From contig JAMONX010000100.1 of NCBI GenBank assembly GCA_027066435.1, positions 1-33,211 of the forward strand: DNA of 33,211 nt, written 5' to 3'. Of the stretch, positions 331 to 8,919 are shown one piece after another. Position 1 is the stretch's first letter; every line of letters begins with the position of its first letter. Source of the DNA: Campylobacterales bacterium. Lineage in GTDB: Bacteria > Campylobacterota > Campylobacteria > Campylobacterales > QNZT01. The notes under the pieces are model-generated. The model made no database searches and was not told the origin of the DNA. It saw only the letters and a list, made by a program, of their open reading frames with translations. The position numbers and the translations under genes are program-made.

Positions 331-501
331 TTATTTAGTCTCCTTTGGGATTTTATATATCATTGATTTTAGTATAATTTTGCTGGCTTAAACTAAAAAT
401 AGGTAAAAAATTTATATAAAAAATAATATTTAATTTATAAAAATAAATATATTATTAGGTTTAAAGGTGTGAACTTTAGTCATAGTTTAAAAAAAGATTT
501 T

Positions 502-687
502 TTAGAGTTTGCTAAGTCTTCTAATAACGATGACAGGTCTAGCAAAGTGTTTTCCCTTTCCATTTTGTTCATATCCAATATTTTGACCTATCTTGACTCA
601 AAATATTTCTCGTGGTTTTACACCTAAAGTAAAGTCTTTGGTATGTGTCTCTTTTTTGATTTCATTCCACCCATTGAATCTATCCAA
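502..687 (-). pseudogene. Remnant of a PemK/MazF-family toxin gene
   Basis: Reading the minus strand from a TTG at 687 (behind GAGGGA) gives a frame starting LDRFNGWNEIKKET. It continues through VKPREIF, an in-frame TGA at 598-600, then VKIGQNIGYEQNGKGKHFAR and PVIVIRR, and stops at 502-504. The signature around IGQNIGYEQNGKG..FARPVIV is that of PemK/MazF-like endoribonuclease toxins, where the residue at the TGA is normally Trp, so a single TGG-to-TGA change explains the stop. The C-terminal half is also missing: about 61 codons remain where I expect roughly 110-120 for the family. No antitoxin frame was recognised beside it. The rest of the 331-772 gap (331-501, 688-772) is AT-rich with no other gene seen. 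Confidence 0.7.
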
Positions 688-772
688 AAACTTTCCCTCT
701 CTATTTATAACTCAATTGATGAATTGGCATTTTTATATTTTCACAGATTGTAACTAAACAAGATATATCAAG

Positions 773-2257
773 TCAATCATCTACAACCCTTTTTAACGCT
801 CCAAGTATTTTCACCATAGCCAAAGTATCAAGTTTACAATACTCTAAAAGTGCTTTTCTCATCTTCTGTTTTTCATCTGTATCAAGAGAAGAAAGTGTTG
901 CAAAAGCACTCATCGCATCTGTTCCATTTTGTACACCATCCAAACTTTCATAAGCATCTTTCATATCTGGCACAAGTGCAGGTAATACATACTTTATAGA
1001 GTAGCTACCCATCATCGAAGGGGTAACATACTGTTTTTTCTGAAAAGGAGCCATCAAGTCTTTGATATTGTCACTTATATCAAGTAGCTGTGAACTGTAC
1101 TCTTTATACTCTGATGCAAGTTTTTTTATAACACCTTTTTCAAAGTGCATGTTGTAAGTAAGCACGGTAACATCTCTTGGTATATCGTTACACAGTTTTT
1201 TTGCTAACTCTTCTCGTGGGTCTACACCATCATCTGCCAAAAACTCATGATGTTCAAGCTTTCCATCCTTCTGTTCTATATGTAGTGAGTACTGAAACGG
1301 TATCTGCATAAATGGGCTAATCCCTTTAAACTCAGGTATAGCTTGTTGAAATGTTTCAAAGTCTAAGTGATATATAGGATACGATAAAGCATCAACAAAG
1401 GCCCTTATAGACTCTTTATCTATATAACTCTTCCTTGATTTGTAGTTTGATACTGCTTCGAATTGTTTGTCTGTCATATCAAAATCATCAAGTATATCTT
1501 TGATATCAACAATACCCTGCTTATACAAAGCCACTTGCTTTTTACTACCTAAGTTAAAAATGTTAAATACCGAATACTCAGGAATCTCTCGTTGAACCCT
1601 CCAACAATACTCCTTGGCATCACACTCATAAGGCTTGTTACAATGAGCTCCTATATCTATATCAGGTTCATCTGTTTTATCTGATAAAACATCTTCAAAC
1701 TCTTCTAGTCTGTAAGGGATAGCATCTTGTAACTCTACTACTTCATGAGTAACATCCACGATAGCAAAAAGAGCCTCTATATCTAGCTCATCACCTCTTA
1801 CATAAGTATTGTCTATATGCACCACATTTGCACTCTTTATGCTAAATCCAAGTTGGCTCAATACATAATACTGGATAGAAACATCATGAAGATATATCTC
1901 TTTAACAGAAGTAGAGCTTTTCACCTCATAGATAGATATACCATCTTCATCGATTTGCAATATATCAACTATCACCAAGATACCATCATAAACAAAAGTA
2001 GCTTCATAGATATACTTGACACCCGCATCTATAAGTTTGGATGTAGTCTCTATCATCTTATCATACTCTCTGGTAAATGCTACCTCCACACCATCAGGAA
2101 AAAGTTTACAAGCTAACTCTCCTACTATGTTTCCAGTTTCAAATACTGCTGAAGTAGAAGCATCAGCAGAGCTTAAAACTTCAAGTTTGTACTTTTTTAG
2201 CCATAGGGATTTGGGGCATTGGATGGCTTGAGTGTATAGGAATTTGGAGATGGTCAT
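773..2257 (-). CDS. DUF2779 family nuclease (Cas4/RecB-like plus DnaQ-like domains)
   Basis: This 494-residue protein has two nuclease-like halves. The N-terminal half resembles Cas4/RecB PD-(D/E)XK nucleases: Cys14 in a CPKSLWLKK start, Asp98, and Glu111-x-Lys113 (YEVKSS). A later Cys206/Cys212/Cys218 cluster, with Cys14, would make the four ligands of an iron-sulphur cluster. The C-terminal half opens with YHLDFET (Asp299, Glu301), the first motif of DnaQ/RNase-H-fold exonucleases, consistent with the DUF2779 family. Its exact substrate is not known. It starts directly after the stop of the OLD-like gene with no visible ribosome binding site, so translation is probably coupled. It is the last gene of the sbcD-sbcC operon. 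Hand counts of four lines give about 39% G+C, higher than the OLD gene upstream. Confidence 0.85.
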   Translation of the reverse strand: MTISKFLYTQAIQCPKSLWLKKYKLEVLSSADASTSAVFETGNIVGELACKLFPDGVEVAFTREYDKMIETTSKLIDAGVKYIYEATFVYDGILVIVDILQIDEDGISIYEVKSSTSVKEIYLHDVSIQYYVLSQLGFSIKSANVVHIDNTYVRGDELDIEALFAIVDVTHEVVELQDAIPYRLEEFEDVLSDKTDEPDIDIGAHCNKPYECDAKEYCWRVQREIPEYSVFNIFNLGSKKQVALYKQGIVDIKDILDDFDMTDKQFEAVSNYKSRKSYIDKESIRAFVDALSYPIYHLDFETFQQAIPEFKGISPFMQIPFQYSLHIEQKDGKLEHHEFLADDGVDPREELAKKLCNDIPRDVTVLTYNMHFEKGVIKKLASEYKEYSSQLLDISDNIKDLMAPFQKKQYVTPSMMGSYSIKYVLPALVPDMKDAYESLDGVQNGTDAMSAFATLSSLDTDEKQKMRKALLEYCKLDTLAMVKILGALKRVVDD

Positions 2258-4075
2258 TTATATAATAATTTCTTGAATTTTATCAAAAATATTTTTTATA
2301 GGTTCAATACTTTCTATATTTTCCTTATTTAAATAATTAGCTAATTGAAGTGATATCTCAGGTTTACCTATTCTTTTTTTACATTCTCTACTCAATAGAT
2401 TTTTCAAACTTTCAGAAAATTTATCTTCTTCACGTATATTCAAAAAATCTGTCTCATTCCAACTTCCATCCTCCTTTTGAAATTTATCATTACATAATTG
2501 ACAATATTGAACATCACTAAAAACATCTTCAAATTCTTTGGTACCAATAAAAAAACAATGATTTTCTAAATATTCTTCATCAAACCCTATCTCTTCTAAT
2601 TTTTCTTTGGTTACTCTACTTTTAGATGTATCATATTGAGTATCAGAATCTAAAAATAAAACTGTACAATCTTTTTTATTTGCATTCAAAAATTTTAATG
2701 CATTACTCCATTGTCCATTTGTTTGCAAATTGATTAAAATAACTCCATCCTCAATTAGACTTTTTCCTGTATATTTTTTATACATGATAGGTAAGGCATT
2801 TTCTTCACCTTCACCTTCTACCAACAAAAAGCATTTTTCATAAAAAATATTACTATTTTTAAAGCCACTTACTTCTGATATTTGATTTAAAAAATCCAAA
2901 ATATCTTCATCTTCTTCTGTACTTAAAAAATGTACTCTTGATTTATCATCCTCTTTTACAACATGATTTATAGATTTTGCAGGTGCTCTATCAATCATTG
3001 TTAGAGCATGTGTACAAATTATAGACTGTATACAAGATTCATCTTCTTCTGCTAAATCTCTAATTATATAAAACATTTCTCTTTGTGCATAATAATGAAG
3101 GTGAGCATCAGGCTCATCATATGCTCTTATGATATTACGTGCTGTTTCGGCATCCATACTAATTTCAGAATCCCATTCTAAAATTGATAAAAATATCTTC
3201 TTCTTAGAGCCATCGCCCATTTGATCAAGTGTGACATTTCTTCCTATCTCATCTTTGACACTTAAACCTGAAAAACTTAATCCTCTTGAAAAATCGATAT
3301 CGTAGTTTCCACTTATAGTATTAATGTCTGGTTTGTATTTTTGTATATGCTCTAATAACTGTGTCTCTAATTTTGTATTCAAAGATAGTTCTATCTCTTC
3401 TTGTAAAGTACTAAAGTTATTTTTTAGTTTCTCATTTCCTTCTGCATCCTTCTCATAAAAAGATTCTCTATAAACCAAATCTAGTGTTTTCCTAATTAAT
3501 GATGTAGGATTACCATAGTCACTAGATGCATATCTTTGAAAAATAGGTAAATAATTTGAAATTATTCTCCAGTTTACTTCTAAAAATCTATTTTCTGTTT
3601 CAATATCATATTCTTCTAGATGTATTTTAATAGCCTCTTTTCTTAAATCCTGATTACTTTTGGGTTCAATCTCAAGTCTTGATAATAATGCTTTTAATTC
3701 TCCTGCACTCATATCATCGTAGATATTAAAATCATTATCTACAAATACTTCAGCAAGTATCTCCACTTTAAATGTAGCATTTTTAAGAAAAGTTTTTTTT
3801 ATTTTAATCATTCCATTACTAATATACTTTTCAAAGCCTTCTATTTCGGTATAAACATTAAAGGTACAAATTATTTTAATAGTATCAATATTATCTCTAT
3901 ATAATTCTAATGGTATATTTTTATTTTCTAAAAAATATTCTAATGCATCAAAAATGGTTGATTTTCCTGCATCATTTTCTCCAATAAATACCGTTAAATT
4001 ATGGAATGGTATAATTCCTGAATCTTCGTAACATTTCAACCCTTTAATTTCTAAATCTTTTAATTTAAGACTCAT
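2258..4075 (-). CDS. OLD-family ATP-dependent endonuclease (AAA/ABC ATPase plus TOPRIM)
   Basis: This 605-residue protein has the OLD (overcoming lysogenization defect) architecture. An ABC-type ATPase half carries Walker A GENDAGKST (residues 32-40), a degenerate signature near 286-292, Walker B AYDEPDAHLH (about 318-327) and a switch His in CTHAL (354-358). A TOPRIM half carries Glu420 in LLVEGEGEEN and Asp476/Asp478 in LFLDSDT. OLD nucleases act in phage defence and DNA processing. No UvrD-like helicase (GajB) gene lies next to it, so a Gabija pair is not supported. The start is ATG after GGGAG. Hand counts of five 60-base lines give about 23% G+C, much lower than sbcC or the DUF2779 gene, which suggests that it and the WYL-like gene were acquired together. 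Confidence 0.85.
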   Translation of the reverse strand: MSLKLKDLEIKGLKCYEDSGIIPFHNLTVFIGENDAGKSTIFDALEYFLENKNIPLELYRDNIDTIKIICTFNVYTEIEGFEKYISNGMIKIKKTFLKNATFKVEILAEVFVDNDFNIYDDMSAGELKALLSRLEIEPKSNQDLRKEAIKIHLEEYDIETENRFLEVNWRIISNYLPIFQRYASSDYGNPTSLIRKTLDLVYRESFYEKDAEGNEKLKNNFSTLQEEIELSLNTKLETQLLEHIQKYKPDINTISGNYDIDFSRGLSFSGLSVKDEIGRNVTLDQMGDGSKKKIFLSILEWDSEISMDAETARNIIRAYDEPDAHLHYYAQREMFYIIRDLAEEDESCIQSIICTHALTMIDRAPAKSINHVVKEDDKSRVHFLSTEEDEDILDFLNQISEVSGFKNSNIFYEKCFLLVEGEGEENALPIMYKKYTGKSLIEDGVILINLQTNGQWSNALKFLNANKKDCTVLFLDSDTQYDTSKSRVTKEKLEEIGFDEEYLENHCFFIGTKEFEDVFSDVQYCQLCNDKFQKEDGSWNETDFLNIREEDKFSESLKNLLSRECKKRIGKPEISLQLANYLNKENIESIEPIKNIFDKIQEIII

Positions 4076-4090
4076 TTTTTTCTCCCAATT

Positions 4091-4402
4091 TTAAGAATAT
4101 ATACCCCAATCTCGTTCAATTGACCAATCAGTATCCCATTTAATATAATCTGCTGGTTCAAAAACTTCATCAAGTTTTACAAGACTAATAATTTGTGCTT
4201 CTTCCAAGGGAAGATTATGTCTACCATTTGGACTATCAAGATCAAATAATTGAAATTTTTTGACTGGAATTTTATCCCTTTTCCCAGCAGCATAATCAAA
4301 TGGTACACATCTTCTAGTCCTATTGGTATTATCTTTTTTTGAATAAAAAGTAACCTCTACAAGTCTTTTTTCTTTGATTGCTTCTATGAATTTATTTAAC
4401 AT
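4091..4402 (-). CDS. Small WYL-like domain protein
   Basis: This is a 103-residue soluble protein with an ATG start behind AAAGGA. The pattern FIEAIKEKRLVEVTFYSK...RTRRCVPFDY...KKFQLFDLDSPNGRHNLPL..AQIISL resembles a stand-alone WYL fold: a helix, a short beta strand, an Arg-rich strand followed by a Pro, then a strand ending in a loop of conserved polar residues. WYL domains bind nucleic acids or nucleotide ligands and often regulate or assist defence ATPases and nucleases. The assignment is by pattern and not certain. It sits 15 nt before the OLD gene and shares its low G+C (about 27% in the one line counted). That suggests a two-gene unit in which this protein serves the OLD nuclease. Confidence 0.6.
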   Translation of the reverse strand: MLNKFIEAIKEKRLVEVTFYSKKDNTNRTRRCVPFDYAAGKRDKIPVKKFQLFDLDSPNGRHNLPLEEAQIISLVKLDEVFEPADYIKWDTDWSIERDWGIYS

Positions 4403-4439
4403 ATAATTTTCCTTTCATTATGTTTTATTTAGAGTTATA

Positions 4440-6806
4440 TCACAACTCCACCACCCTCTCAAACATCTCCTTTATCTCACTCTCATGAGATATCAAAAAT
4501 ATCTGTCTATACTGCTCTTTTATCGTATGAAATGCTTCCATGATTTCAAATCGTCGCTCTTCATCTTGGCTTCCAAACACTTCATCAAATGCCAAGAACC
4601 CTACTCCACCACTACCACTAAGCTCACTCAAAGTTTTAGATATAGCGATACGAAGTACCAAGTTTGCCAAGTCTACCTCTCCACCACTAAATCGCTCTAT
4701 CGGGTACTTCACACCATCGTCATAGATAAAGAAGTCAAACTCGTTGTTTACTTCTATGTGTTGGTATTTTCCTCTTGTTATACTCGCATACATCCCACTT
4801 GCTAACTGGCTGATTCTTGGGGCTATTTGGGAGTTTATTTTGTTTTTGAACTCTGACATGAAAGCTTTTAGTTTTTCATAGTCATTTTTATCATCTATCT
4901 TGGATTGAAGCTTTTTTTTCTGCTCTTTATCTCTTGTAAGTTCACTTTTTATGGTGTTTATCTCACCCTCTATCTTTTGAGCTTCTACTTTTTTCTCTGA
5001 TAGTTTTGATTGGATTACATCTTTATCTTTTAAAACACTCTCATAAATAAGTTCTTGTTTTTGGTGAGCCTTTGCATCATAGCTATGCTCTTTTATAGAT
5101 TTTTCATATGTTGTTATACCCTCTTTGGTTTTTTGTATCTGTGTATCTATCTCTTTTAGTTCATTTTCTAGTGTTGGTATCTGTGATATAACACTCTCTA
5201 GTTTTAGTAACTCTTCATACTTTGGTTTTAACTGCTCTGTTTTTTGGATTGTCTCTTGATGAGCTTTTTCATCATATTTGAGATCTTTTAAAGCTTCTAA
5301 CTCTTTTTTATTTGCCATGCCTTTTTGTGTGATATTTTTAAACTCTATCTCTTTTGATTGTAGTGTTTTTTCATCTTGTAGTAAGACACTTAAACTCTCT
5401 CCTACTTTTTTTAATCGTCCCTCTATCTCTATTTTGTTTTGTTGCTCTTTACTTTTTATAGGTGTTATATTTTGAAGCTGTTTTTCTCTTTGAACTATCT
5501 CATTTAGATGGAGTTTATCAATTTCGCTTTTTAGAGAGTTTATAACATTGTCATACTCATCAAGTAGTGGTCTTGTACATGTTGGGCAGTTTGAGCCTTT
5601 ACCGATTGCCTCTATCTTTGATATCTGTTTGTTAGAGTTTTCTATCAAGCCGTTGTATTTGGCTATCTCTTGTTTTAGTTTGGACTCTTGTTGTTCAATC
5701 TTTTGTATCTCTGATAAAGAGTGTTCTAGTAACTTTTGTTGCTTCTCTTTTTCTTGCATGAGTTGTGGTTTTGTCTCTAGTTTTGTATTAAATTCACCAA
5801 TCTCTTTTTCTGCATTTGTATACTGGCTTCTTAGTACAACCTGCTCTTTTTCTAAACCCTCTTTTTTGAGTTGTTGCTCTTTTTGAGATTGCAGAGTAAG
5901 GAGAGTTTTTTCTAACTCTTTGTACTCATTCATAATAAGTTTATCTTTGATATAGAGTTTTTCTTGCTCTTTTAGAGTTTGAAGTTTTTGATGTTTCTCT
6001 TTTTGATTTTTAATAAAATTTTCAAGGTTTGTCTTTGTTACTGTGAGATTAGTTTCAAGCTTTGAGTAGTCATCTTTTAGAAGTTGAAATGCTTTTAATG
6101 CTTTGGCGACATTTTTAACCTCTAGAGTTTTCTCATCAAACTCTTTTTTAACCTTTTTTATCTCCTCCTGCAAGGAGGAAAATATATTGGTATGTGACTC
6201 TTTGGCTTTGTTTAACTCTTCTATTTTTGCATCTGAGAGTAAAATCTCTGAAAAACTTTTTATATCTCTATTTAGATCAGTTAGTTTTATCCGTATCTCT
6301 TTTTCTATACTGTCTATCTTTTCAAGTCCCAAAAGTTTTCGAATGATTTTCTTTCTATCTTCATTTTTAAGACCACTTAGTGCTGTTAGCTCTTTTTGTG
6401 AAGCAAAGACGGTGTGAGAAAAAGCTTCTTTGTTCATACCTATAAGTTTTACAATCTCAGAAGTTACACCTTTGGCACTCTCAGCAATCAAAGCATCATC
6501 TCCATCATATAGATATGCTTTTGCGACAAGTGTTTTTCCTCGCATCTGCCTTGTAACTTTATAGTTTTTACCATCTATCTCAAACATCAAGCTAACAGCT
6601 ACTATCTCTTTTTCACTAGCTTTAGAGTGGCGAATAGTCTCTTTCTCACCTCGTACATCACCGTACAGGGCAAATGTTATAGCATCAAAGATAGTAGACT
6701 TACCTGCTCCATTTCGTCCGATGATACCTGTGAGTCCTTCGTTAAACTCTATGGTGTAATCTTTATACTTTTTATAGTTTTGCATATGAAGGTTAGTTAG
6801 TATCAT
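4440..6806 (-). CDS. sbcC: Rad50/SbcC-type DNA repair ATPase
   Basis: This is the ATPase subunit of the SbcCD (Rad50-Mre11) complex, which opens hairpins and trims protein-blocked or broken DNA ends. The N-terminus has Walker A GRNGAGKST (residues 30-38). Long Lys/Glu/Gln-rich coiled coils flank a zinc hook CPTC (Cys407, Cys410). The C-terminus has the ABC signature FSGGE and Walker B FLAFDEVFGSQD, followed by an H-loop region (LISHESE). At 788 residues it is shorter than E. coli SbcC and closer to archaeal and other bacterial Rad50 proteins. ATG at 6806 lies inside the end of sbcD, after GAGG, giving a 14-base overlap and likely translational coupling. G+C in the globular parts reaches well above 40% in places. 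Confidence 0.95.
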   Translation of the reverse strand: MILTNLHMQNYKKYKDYTIEFNEGLTGIIGRNGAGKSTIFDAITFALYGDVRGEKETIRHSKASEKEIVAVSLMFEIDGKNYKVTRQMRGKTLVAKAYLYDGDDALIAESAKGVTSEIVKLIGMNKEAFSHTVFASQKELTALSGLKNEDRKKIIRKLLGLEKIDSIEKEIRIKLTDLNRDIKSFSEILLSDAKIEELNKAKESHTNIFSSLQEEIKKVKKEFDEKTLEVKNVAKALKAFQLLKDDYSKLETNLTVTKTNLENFIKNQKEKHQKLQTLKEQEKLYIKDKLIMNEYKELEKTLLTLQSQKEQQLKKEGLEKEQVVLRSQYTNAEKEIGEFNTKLETKPQLMQEKEKQQKLLEHSLSEIQKIEQQESKLKQEIAKYNGLIENSNKQISKIEAIGKGSNCPTCTRPLLDEYDNVINSLKSEIDKLHLNEIVQREKQLQNITPIKSKEQQNKIEIEGRLKKVGESLSVLLQDEKTLQSKEIEFKNITQKGMANKKELEALKDLKYDEKAHQETIQKTEQLKPKYEELLKLESVISQIPTLENELKEIDTQIQKTKEGITTYEKSIKEHSYDAKAHQKQELIYESVLKDKDVIQSKLSEKKVEAQKIEGEINTIKSELTRDKEQKKKLQSKIDDKNDYEKLKAFMSEFKNKINSQIAPRISQLASGMYASITRGKYQHIEVNNEFDFFIYDDGVKYPIERFSGGEVDLANLVLRIAISKTLSELSGSGGVGFLAFDEVFGSQDEERRFEIMEAFHTIKEQYRQIFLISHESEIKEMFERVVEL

Positions 6807-7914
6807 CAGCTACCTCCTCATAGAGTGCAAAAAGCTCTTTTGCCTTTGATGTAAGTCTTTTCTGCTCTACATCATCACTCACACTCTCTTTTATGTGAGA
6901 TATGAAATAACTCTCTAAAGATATAGACTCTATGTTTCCATCTATCTTGCTACCTTCAACCTCTTTAAACTCTCTTTTGACTTTTACATGAAGGGCTTTG
7001 TCAAATATCTCAGTTATCTCTTTATTCGTTATGTCTATGGAAGTTGCAGATGTGAGATTAAAAAGTTTGACTTCAACTAAGGCATCTTTACTCTCTGATA
7101 AATCAAGAGATGCTATCTGCTCTTCATACTTATCTGCATCTATACTAAACTCTAAAGATTTACGAAGAGCTATTGTGTGATGAGTTATAGTTACTTTATC
7201 TTCTAACTCTACTATGACATAACCCTTATCATCTCTTTTATCGCTACTACTTGTTCTCTCTGTTGAGCCTGAATAGTAGACATTTTTATGTTTCCCTACA
7301 TTTCCAAAACCATGCCAATGCCCCAAAGCTACATAGTCCATCTTTTCAAATATATCTTCTCTTGTTTTAGGATAAACCCACTCACCAAACTCATGCATCA
7401 AGTAAGATGCACCAACTGAACAGTGCATCATGAAGATATTTTTCTTTTTAGGATTTATGTTTTTATCTATGGAGTCTAATTCACCATCGATGATTCTCTC
7501 ATCATTTATATGTGGGAGTGCATGAAAGATTATATCTTCAAACTCTACCGTTTCATACTGCTGAGAAAAAACTGCTTTTACATTGTCCAGAGTGCTTAGC
7601 GCCTCTAGTATAGGAGATGAAGATGAAGTTCTAGGAGTTGAGTGGTTTCCTGCGATGATGATAAAAGGGATATTTAGCTTTTCTACTCTTTTAAGCTGTG
7701 TCAATGCAAAAGTGATAGCACGATTTGAAGGAGATGCACGATGAAAAAGATCTCCAGTATGGATGATAAAATCAGGTTTTATCTTTATGATGGCATCACA
7801 AACATCTGAAAATGCCTGATAAAAGTCTGCTTCTCTTTGGTTGATACCCTCTTTGTTTATGATATCCAAATCACTAAACCCAAGATGAGTATCTGAAAAA
7901 TGTATGATTTTCAA
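6793..7914 (-). CDS. sbcD: Mre11/SbcD-type exonuclease subunit
   Basis: This is the nuclease partner of SbcC. All metallophosphoesterase motifs are visible in order: FSDTHLG (residues 6-12), HTGDLFHR, IAGNHSTP, MMHCSVG and LGHWHGFG, which together bind the two catalytic metal ions. The C-terminal third is the capping and Rad50-binding region. The length of 373 residues suits the family. The start is TTG at 7914, six bases after AAGGA; no ATG fits the motif-bearing N-terminus. It is the first gene of the five-gene minus-strand operon, and a near-consensus sigma-70 promoter lies at 7993-8020. Confidence 0.93.
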   Translation of the reverse strand: MKIIHFSDTHLGFSDLDIINKEGINQREADFYQAFSDVCDAIIKIKPDFIIHTGDLFHRASPSNRAITFALTQLKRVEKLNIPFIIIAGNHSTPRTSSSSPILEALSTLDNVKAVFSQQYETVEFEDIIFHALPHINDERIIDGELDSIDKNINPKKKNIFMMHCSVGASYLMHEFGEWVYPKTREDIFEKMDYVALGHWHGFGNVGKHKNVYYSGSTERTSSSDKRDDKGYVIVELEDKVTITHHTIALRKSLEFSIDADKYEEQIASLDLSESKDALVEVKLFNLTSATSIDITNKEITEIFDKALHVKVKREFKEVEGSKIDGNIESISLESYFISHIKESVSDDVEQKRLTSKAKELFALYEEVADDTN

Positions 7915-7992
7915 ATAAATTCCTTAACTATATATCGATATTCTTACTCCCCAAGCAATAAAAAAATTTAATTATCTTAAATTAATATTGAT

Positions 7993-8020
7993 ATTATACA
8001 TTAATCTTATTTTTTGTCAA
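7993..8020 (-). promoter_or_regulatory. Sigma-70 type promoter for the sbcD operon
   Basis: On the minus strand TTGACA (8015-8020) is followed after 16 bases by TATAAT (7993-7998), both exact consensus hexamers. The expected transcript start is near 7986, leaving about 70 nt of leader before the sbcD start at 7914. A second, weaker TATAAT lies further upstream (minus strand, near 8063). The rest of the 7915-8178 gap shows no gene. Confidence 0.75.
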
Positions 8021-8178
8021 ACTATTCCCCGATATTGTTTTGTATGAACAATTTGAAGATATTATAATGATTTTTGCGATTTTTTATACAAGTTAAGAGA
8101 TAACAAAACTTTCAGACTGTCAACTTTAGCTAAGAATTGTTTTATATCCTTTGTATAAATTAGTGTTGCCAGATTATT

Positions 8179-8919
8179 TCACACCCCATACAGTGTCTCA
8201 AACACTTGAGCAAAAAATCCATCAAACATATAAACTATAAAAAGAGCAAATGCCAAAAATGGTATAAAAGGAACTTCTAAATCTTTATCTTTTATGATGA
8301 TAAAGACAGGGAGTGCGATGATAGCTGATAAAAATATAACTAAAGCTCCAAGTTTTAAGCCAACCAATGCACCGATTGTTGCAGCTATCATGATATCAGC
8401 TTCACCAAGTGCTTCTTTTTTTACGATGTATGATACATAAAAACGAAGAAGTGCAAAACCACCTGCATAAAGAAGTGCATTTGTTAAGTTTTCTAGTATA
8501 AAAGGAGATGCAAATATAGCCAAAGTTAGAGCTGCTAAATTTAGACTATCAGGAACCGCTTTATAACGAAGGTCTATTAGAGAGAGTCCAAGAAGAAGAG
8601 CAAAAACAAGTCCTGTTATAAAACTATATGTGATATCTCCAAGTTTATAATATACAAGTCCAAATATCAGTGCAGTTAAAAACTCTATAATTGGGTATTG
8701 GATAGATATTTTATCTTTACAAAAGCTACATTTTCCACCTAAAAGAAGCCAAGAAAAGATTGGTATATTGTGCCACCATTTTAGCTTTGTGTTGCATTTT
8801 GTACAGTGAGAACCAGGAAATACTATGCTTTCTTCTTTGGGAATTCGTAAAATCAAAACATTTAAAAAAGAGCCAAACAAAAGCCCAAAAAGAATTAAAA
8901 TACCACCTTCTAACATCAT
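8179..8919 (-). CDS. Type IV prepilin peptidase (A24 family), PilD-like
   Basis: This is an inner-membrane aspartic peptidase that cleaves the leader of type IV pilin-like proteins and, in full-length enzymes, N-methylates them. The N-terminal FGSFLNVLILRIP motif is followed by a cytoplasmic zinc-binding loop with two CxxC pairs (CTKC and CSFC) and then several hydrophobic helices. The two catalytic Asp are expected in LIDLRYKAVPD and in LGEADIM; the second departs from the common GxGD (here GEAD), but the Asp is kept. I chose ATG at 8919, nine bases after GGAG and one base past the uppS stop. A TTG at 8949 would add ten residues and overlap uppS. It is the last gene of the glmU operon. Confidence 0.88.
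   Translation of the reverse strand: MMLEGGILILFGLLFGSFLNVLILRIPKEESIVFPGSHCTKCNTKLKWWHNIPIFSWLLLGGKCSFCKDKISIQYPIIEFLTALIFGLVYYKLGDITYSFITGLVFALLLGLSLIDLRYKAVPDSLNLAALTLAIFASPFILENLTNALLYAGGFALLRFYVSYIVKKEALGEADIMIAATIGALVGLKLGALVIFLSAIIALPVFIIIKDKDLEVPFIPFLAFALFIVYMFDGFFAQVFETLYGV

Follow-up and report, generated by a model that had tools for sequence, protein, structure and literature searches.

Does an operon that joins the repair nuclease SbcCD to an OLD-family nuclease encode a single dedicated complex, or a stable frame around a part that can be exchanged? The question is raised by a locus in the window, i.e., the whole 33,211-nucleotide stretch of Campylobacterales DNA analysed here (contig JAMONX010000100.1). 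The window is chromosomal, with relatives of uppS, coaBC, and glmU upstream of the operon; several other genomes likewise have glmU upstream of their sbcCD genes. Five genes, all on the minus strand, were identified from the list of open reading frames, domain searches, and motifs. The first is sbcD (positions 6793–7914), encoding an Mre11-like nuclease, followed by a type-1 sbcC (4440–6806), encoding a 788-residue Rad50-like ATPase with a CPTC zinc hook. Next are the genes for a WYL-like protein of 103 residues (4091–4402) and an OLD-family ATPase/TOPRIM nuclease (2258–4075). The last gene (773–2257) encodes a DUF2779 protein that combines a Cas4-like PD-(D/E)XK domain with a DnaQ/RNase H-like exonuclease domain. 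sbcD and sbcC overlap by 14 bp, and the gaps that follow are 37 bp (sbcC to WYL-like), 15 bp (WYL-like to OLD), and 0 bp (OLD to DUF2779). These coordinates bear out the first-pass annotation, which described five co-directional genes with gaps of 37 bp or less. It missed the deviating base composition of the middle pair, described below, and a sigma-70 promoter-like site (TTGACA-16-TATAAT, 8020–7993, minus strand) that lies 78 bp before the sbcD start. Judged by consensus match, the region has 33 promoter-like sites versus 40 in shuffled sequence, and the match at 12 of 12 positions is unique to the 8020–7993 site, which probably drives the whole operon. Just downstream of the DUF2779 gene (500–720, minus strand), a remnant resembling a PemK/MazF toxin (GQNIGYEQNGKGKHFARPVIVIRRL), with an in-frame TGA, was noticed by eye.

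The catalytic motifs of SbcD, SbcC, OLD, and DUF2779 are intact. SbcD matches PF00149 and Mre11 models and has all phosphoesterase motifs; SbcC matches PRK03918 (E = 4e-48), with Walker A and B, the signature motif, and the zinc hook CxxC present. OLD matches AAA_15 (E = 2.5e-33), OLD-like_TOPRIM (E = 4e-8), and the PADLOC Old model (E = 6e-33); it has the ABC-type ATPase and the TOPRIM domain, with VEGE and DSD motifs, expected of its family. The DUF2779 protein matches PF11074 (E = 3e-46) and PADLOC Cas4 (E = 2.5e-5), and its N-terminal domain is assigned to the DUF83/Cas4-like nucleases with predicted Fe-S cysteines. The make-up described for the family, DUF83 plus RNase H-like (PMC3985635), agrees with the window protein. 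Thus four of the family assignments made at first reading stand, as does the view of the set as real DNA-end enzymes with a tie to phage defence, while the WYL-like assignment is weak: Pfam WYL is matched at E = 0.054, with 13.9 bits, below the cut-off of 21.8.

Conservation of the order beyond this strain, on which the first-pass annotation had staked its proposal, was found by gene-neighbourhood comparison. We define the frame as sbcD-sbcC-slot 1-DUF2779, continued in some loci by slot 2 and dgt; the left edge of slot 1 is the sbcC 3′ end. Across Campylobacterales, 39 frames were found on chromosomes and plasmids, 24 with type-1 and 15 with type-2 sbcC, i.e., the same place between conserved flanking genes is occupied in different genomes. 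The exact window order recurs on an Arcobacter plasmid, as sbcD, a type-2 sbcC much longer than type 1, a WYL-like gene (50% identical), a gene for a 707-residue protein, and DUF2779; the type-2 frame is found with other payloads on Aliarcobacter plasmids and other chromosomes. One such plasmid has been described with sbcCD, DUF2779, and dGTPase listed among its genes, without the idea of a slot (PMC6690266). Of the 399 genomes of the order, 67 encode a type-1 SbcC. In these genomes, DUF2779 was found downstream of sbcC, on its strand and at most 10.5 kb away, for 24 of the 30 copies whose contig allows the distance test; the two genes co-occur (Fisher P = 2e-6, odds ratio 3.8). About a dozen of the frames end in dgt, and several of these have the second variable slot between DUF2779 and dgt. 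The view of DUF2779 as an ordinary downstream neighbour of sbcC was rejected on account of L081, in which dgt directly follows sbcC with neither cassette nor DUF2779, and by DUF2779 genes behind unrelated systems.

The genes in slot 1 follow the direction of sbcC. In the 39 frames, 93 slot-1 genes are co-directional with sbcC and 3 are opposite; most loci come from draft genomes and small genes were partly missed by ORF calling, so that such gene counts are approximate. The first family clustering, for example, missed the 103-residue WYL-like gene. When the 3–6 kb downstream of sbcC were read in about 60 loci, the next genes mostly differed between loci; they lay within 130 bp on the same strand in 41 of 62 cases, whereas upstream of sbcD this held for 19 of 60 (Fisher P = 1.6e-4). 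In many of the loci, DUF2779 came after them.

The content of slot 1 is variable and, judged from family models, dominated by anti-phage families. Payloads were named by Pfam and PADLOC, by record annotation, or by homology to a scanned member; by raw count, at least 32 of the 38 filled slots contain members or homologues of defence families, known or candidate, and the systems are complete in some loci and decayed in others. Gabija is found in L121/L222 and L154/L220, and is also a payload in L126. OLD occurs alone or with other nucleases in the window, L124, L140, and L181. ABC-3C or Lamassu-like sets occupy L170, L123/L221, L223, and L225; Ppl-like PHP-SMC proteins are encoded in L120, L139, L147, L215, and L217; PDC-S06/PrrC-like ATPases in L137, L143, L174, L180, L204, and L213; and NACHT proteins in L116, L148, and L201. 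Less frequent payloads are SIR2-HerA (L202, with HerA alone in L058), a kinase-helicase plus PLD pair (L202, L217), Hachiman (L149), a DRT-UG6 reverse transcriptase (L218), Qat (L203), PDC-S53 (L194), a PARIS-like AAA plus DUF4435 set (L144), RnlA (L214), HNH with a nucleotidyltransferase (L142), and a KAP NTPase split by a transposase (L155). Other or unclear genes are found in L183, L164, L219, and L127; the slot of L127 includes a guanylate-cyclase-like gene (7145–8299), for which a role in cyclic-nucleotide defence is possible. Slot 1 of L184 is empty (75 bp). Some sbcCD loci have no defence cassette: four or five are followed by housekeeping genes, and L167 by an Mrp antiporter. In the genus of the window, an sbcC with 52% identity has a Roc-COR GTPase gene immediately behind it (L117, G001:C163, 54–2570). 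Phage antirepressor-like genes recur at slot edges, encoding ORF6N (L131, L134, L136, L137, L141), Bro-N (L124, L136), and RhuM (L144, L218) proteins.

One explanation for such a frame is a modular immune complex, in which SbcCD and DUF2779 form a shared sensing and DNA-processing platform and the cassettes are dependent plug-in effectors, as in Lamassu. The co-directional (93:3), tightly spaced operon would suit it, as would a frame that travels on plasmids with varying payload. The same DUF2779 frame is built around two families of SbcCD with only 27% identity over part of the length for SbcC and 23% for SbcD. DUF2779 also adjoins McrBC, GmrSD, OLD-Mrr-HNH, and AAA operons and, elsewhere, WYL genes. 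SbcC scores against LmuB models as well; however, it scores higher with Rad50 models. Many of the payloads, such as Gabija, Qat, Hachiman, and DRT, are known elsewhere as autonomous systems; 31 of the 67 genomes with type-1 sbcCD lack DUF2779, and defence genes lie directly behind sbcC with no DUF2779 close by in L075, L114, and L160. We therefore consider the modular complex unlikely. Its broadest form is equally doubtful. That is, SbcCD and DUF2779, with dGTPase, would be a universal immune chassis that senses or prepares phage DNA ends for any plugged-in effector, cassettes being swapped between chromosome and plasmid by recombination in the chassis genes. The chassis proposal is kept alive by the two divergent SbcCD families with the same DUF2779 frame and by DUF2779 beside restriction-type operons; if true, it would describe a recombination-driven, promoter-supplied counterpart of the integron for immunity.

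The DUF2779 protein itself is well conserved in its active sites. In all 31 frame copies compared, no change is seen at Cys 14, 206, 212, and 218, at the PD-(D/E)XK residues D98, E111, and K113, or in the DnaQ DxE motif. Outside Campylobacterota, the order ATP-binding protein, DUF2779, WYL recurs on Diaphorobacter and Rhodoferax plasmids (L210, L211), which suggests that DUF2779 is a defence accessory more widely. In L164, a DUF676 esterase-like domain is fused to DUF2779 (3649–5955). A second, decayed DUF2779 gene, about 91–93% identical to that of the window, lies in the same genome (L069, G000:C145, 4515–5605), beside a TIR-like 696-residue ORF and an HNH-like 511-residue ORF, both recognized by eye; it is probably the ruin of another defence locus.

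The borders of the slot are sharp. In pairwise DNA comparisons of five Arcobacteraceae plasmids, 90–95% identity extends through sbcD and sbcC to between −16 and +15 bp of the sbcC stop, and high identity is regained between −14 and +7 bp relative to the start codon of DUF2779. Slot 1 between these points is without homology among the five, except in the related pair L174/L204, which carry the same effector family. Identity drops again near the DUF2779 stop in most pairs and is back at dgt where that gene is retained. The comparison shows exchange at defined borders and refutes, for the plasmid set, the notion of an ordinary defence island, i.e., a chance gathering of unrelated genes with undefined exchange edges. 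Defence genes do cluster in bacterial genomes generally; however, borders within about 16 bp of the same two codons in five plasmids, fragments of frame genes beside cassettes, and the orientation bias of 93:3 make a chance gathering very improbable.

Those fragments are scars. The movement of cassettes from one frame to another, and their stacking, has left behind truncated copies of frame genes, taken from the 3′ end of sbcC or the 5′ end of DUF2779. The initial 77 bp of DUF2779 precede the kinase-helicase cassette in both L202, a type-2 plasmid frame, and L217, a type-1 chromosomal frame; the two loci have in common a 6.2 kb segment of scar, cassette, and DUF2779 with 89.7% DNA identity. 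Because both scars lie in this one shared segment, they count as one event. In L218, the scar consists of bases 44–121 of DUF2779. In L221, a type-1 sbcC is followed immediately after its stop codon by the 3′-terminal 98 bp of a type-2 sbcC, and then by an ABC-3C cassette. Resident sbcC 3′ ends are duplicated in L134, L136, L141, and L165. In 7 of 31 frames, the DUF2779 gene has its nearest neighbour in a frame with the other type of sbcC. After correction for amino-acid composition, synonymous codons are most conserved at the gene ends facing the slot: the final block of sbcC ranks first of 79 (z = 4.6), and the two opening blocks of DUF2779 rank highest among 49 (z = 2.6 and 2.5). Such peaks would be expected of recombination arms; gene overlap or translation signals can contribute to them as well. 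Two details of the scars are recorded here. The type-2 sbcC scars at L221 744–841 and L217 1469–1493 both begin with GTGTGATTTyyCATGTGGAAGCAC, and this common start could be a preferred crossover point or reflect one shared ancestral event. In L134 and L141, an antirepressor-like gene lies directly between sbcC and the duplicated sbcC 3′ end. The locus does not qualify as an integron or other site-specific cassette system, the marks of which would be an integrase and att/attC sites: the ORFs of the window's slot include no recombinase, and the scars are fragments of frame genes.

In the window, the WYL-like and OLD genes have the properties of an insert. The pair is AT-rich, with 24–29% GC over most of its length versus 33–37% in the flanking gene ends, and this was the first hint. 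No close relative of OLD was found in the other 398 genomes of the order searched (399 with the window's own). The deviating composition and this absence suggest a foreign cassette. A scan of genome contigs with OLD found one close relative, 69% identical, in a Helicobacteraceae metagenome-assembled genome (L075), where it lies 23 bp behind sbcC, with no WYL-like gene and no DUF2779 close by. SbcC and SbcD of the two loci are 47% and 57% identical, respectively. OLD is thus more alike than the frame, which is the pattern to be expected if the gene was transferred laterally to the same position. Scans of viral contigs with OLD and with the WYL-like protein gave no relatives. The window's own slot has no frame-gene scar and no recombinase among its ORFs, and the contig of the nearest same-genus relative, G003 (SbcC 82% identical), ends inside sbcC; insertion in the window is therefore deduced from composition, distribution, and relatives.

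The WYL-like gene is itself a reusable part, as it precedes OLD in the window but a PDC-S06 ATPase in two type-2 frames (L174, L180), where homologues with 50% identity hold the same position. The WYL protein of L204 gives no alignment with that of the window. The structure model has a mean pLDDT of 54, i.e., low confidence, and its order of helix then strands is compatible with a WYL/SH3-like barrel. On Deinococcus plasmid pDrdII, a short annotated WYL gene adjoins a distant OLD gene; the two WYL proteins match with a marginal pairwise E of 0.01, and the arrangement is a faint parallel to the window pair. Orphan relatives of 106 residues (about 38–40% identity) are encoded on five small E. 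coli plasmids of 2.8–4.3 kb, one of which is CP056848.1 (L175, 3024–3344).

The distribution of the pair decides against the remaining proposal, that of the first-pass annotation: a fixed repair and defence complex specific to this five-gene combination, for which the order sbcD-sbcC-WYL-like-effector-DUF2779 is repeated on the Arcobacter plasmid and in G098, can scarcely be maintained, as the effector there is PDC-S06 rather than OLD and SbcC is of another type, the sole close OLD relative lacks both companions, and the absence of an OLD orthologue from the other 398 genomes of the order searched, together with other cassettes in the slot, speaks against a dedicated complex. The WYL-like and OLD genes are replaceable, and other genomes mostly have other known defence systems in their place.

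To summarize, the locus is very probably a defence-cassette exchange site, with an sbcCD/DUF2779 frame, a swappable slot, and the WYL-like and OLD genes as its current cassette. We suggest that exchange proceeds by homologous recombination, with sbcCD and DUF2779 as arms, and dgt for slot 2. A new cassette would then come to lie downstream of the sbcD promoter and be transcribed at once. In the window cassette, OLD would be the effector, acting as an ATP-gated TOPRIM nuclease on phage DNA, and the WYL-like protein may regulate it. SbcCD and DUF2779 would process DNA ends and probably help to clear or repair cut DNA, without necessarily belonging to every defence system. With this locus, it can be tested whether repair nucleases next to defence genes act in immunity or lend no more than homology and a promoter. 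Its fixed arms and gene-edge borders, together with the scars and the stacking of cassettes, form a clean natural record of immune-system exchange on chromosomes and plasmids alike. The slot is also a discovery tool, strong anti-phage candidates being the WYL-like partner, PDC-S06, PDC-S53, the kinase-helicase-PLD pair, and the cyclase-like gene.

Comparison with known systems places the locus as follows. No description of an sbcCD/DUF2779 hotspot was found in the literature covered, the scope of which leaves out subscription-journal papers and some preprints. The kind is known, i.e., defence hotspots between conserved genes; the frame, the two SbcCD types, the gene-edge borders, and the scars are undescribed as far as searched. 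The window OLD resembles single-gene OLD proteins such as P2 Old in its AAA_15 and TOPRIM domains, its length of about 600 residues, and the lack of a helicase partner, but it has a small WYL-like partner gene. It shares the OLD ATPase/TOPRIM nuclease with Gabija (GajAB), itself a payload of the slot; in contrast to Gabija, it has no adjacent UvrD-like GajB, its neighbours being the WYL-like and DUF2779 genes. Lamassu (LmuA/B/C) likewise combines a Rad50/SMC-like ATPase with changing effectors in one operon, and a true LmuB is encoded in the slot of L225. However, the window has a full Mre11-Rad50 pair, and LmuA and LmuC were not found there. The closest likeness in organization is to the defence hotspots of E. 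coli and Pseudomonas, i.e., islands flanked by core genes and the hotspots of P2 and P4 phages, in which conserved flanks enclose changing anti-phage systems (PMC10121019, PMC10250203, PMC9122126). As in those, one place between conserved flanks has variable anti-phage content. In contrast to them, the flanks here are co-directional genes for DNA-end enzymes (SbcCD, the DUF2779 nuclease, and often dGTPase), the slot mostly holds one to few co-directional systems, and the frame is found on both chromosomes and plasmids, with two types of SbcCD.
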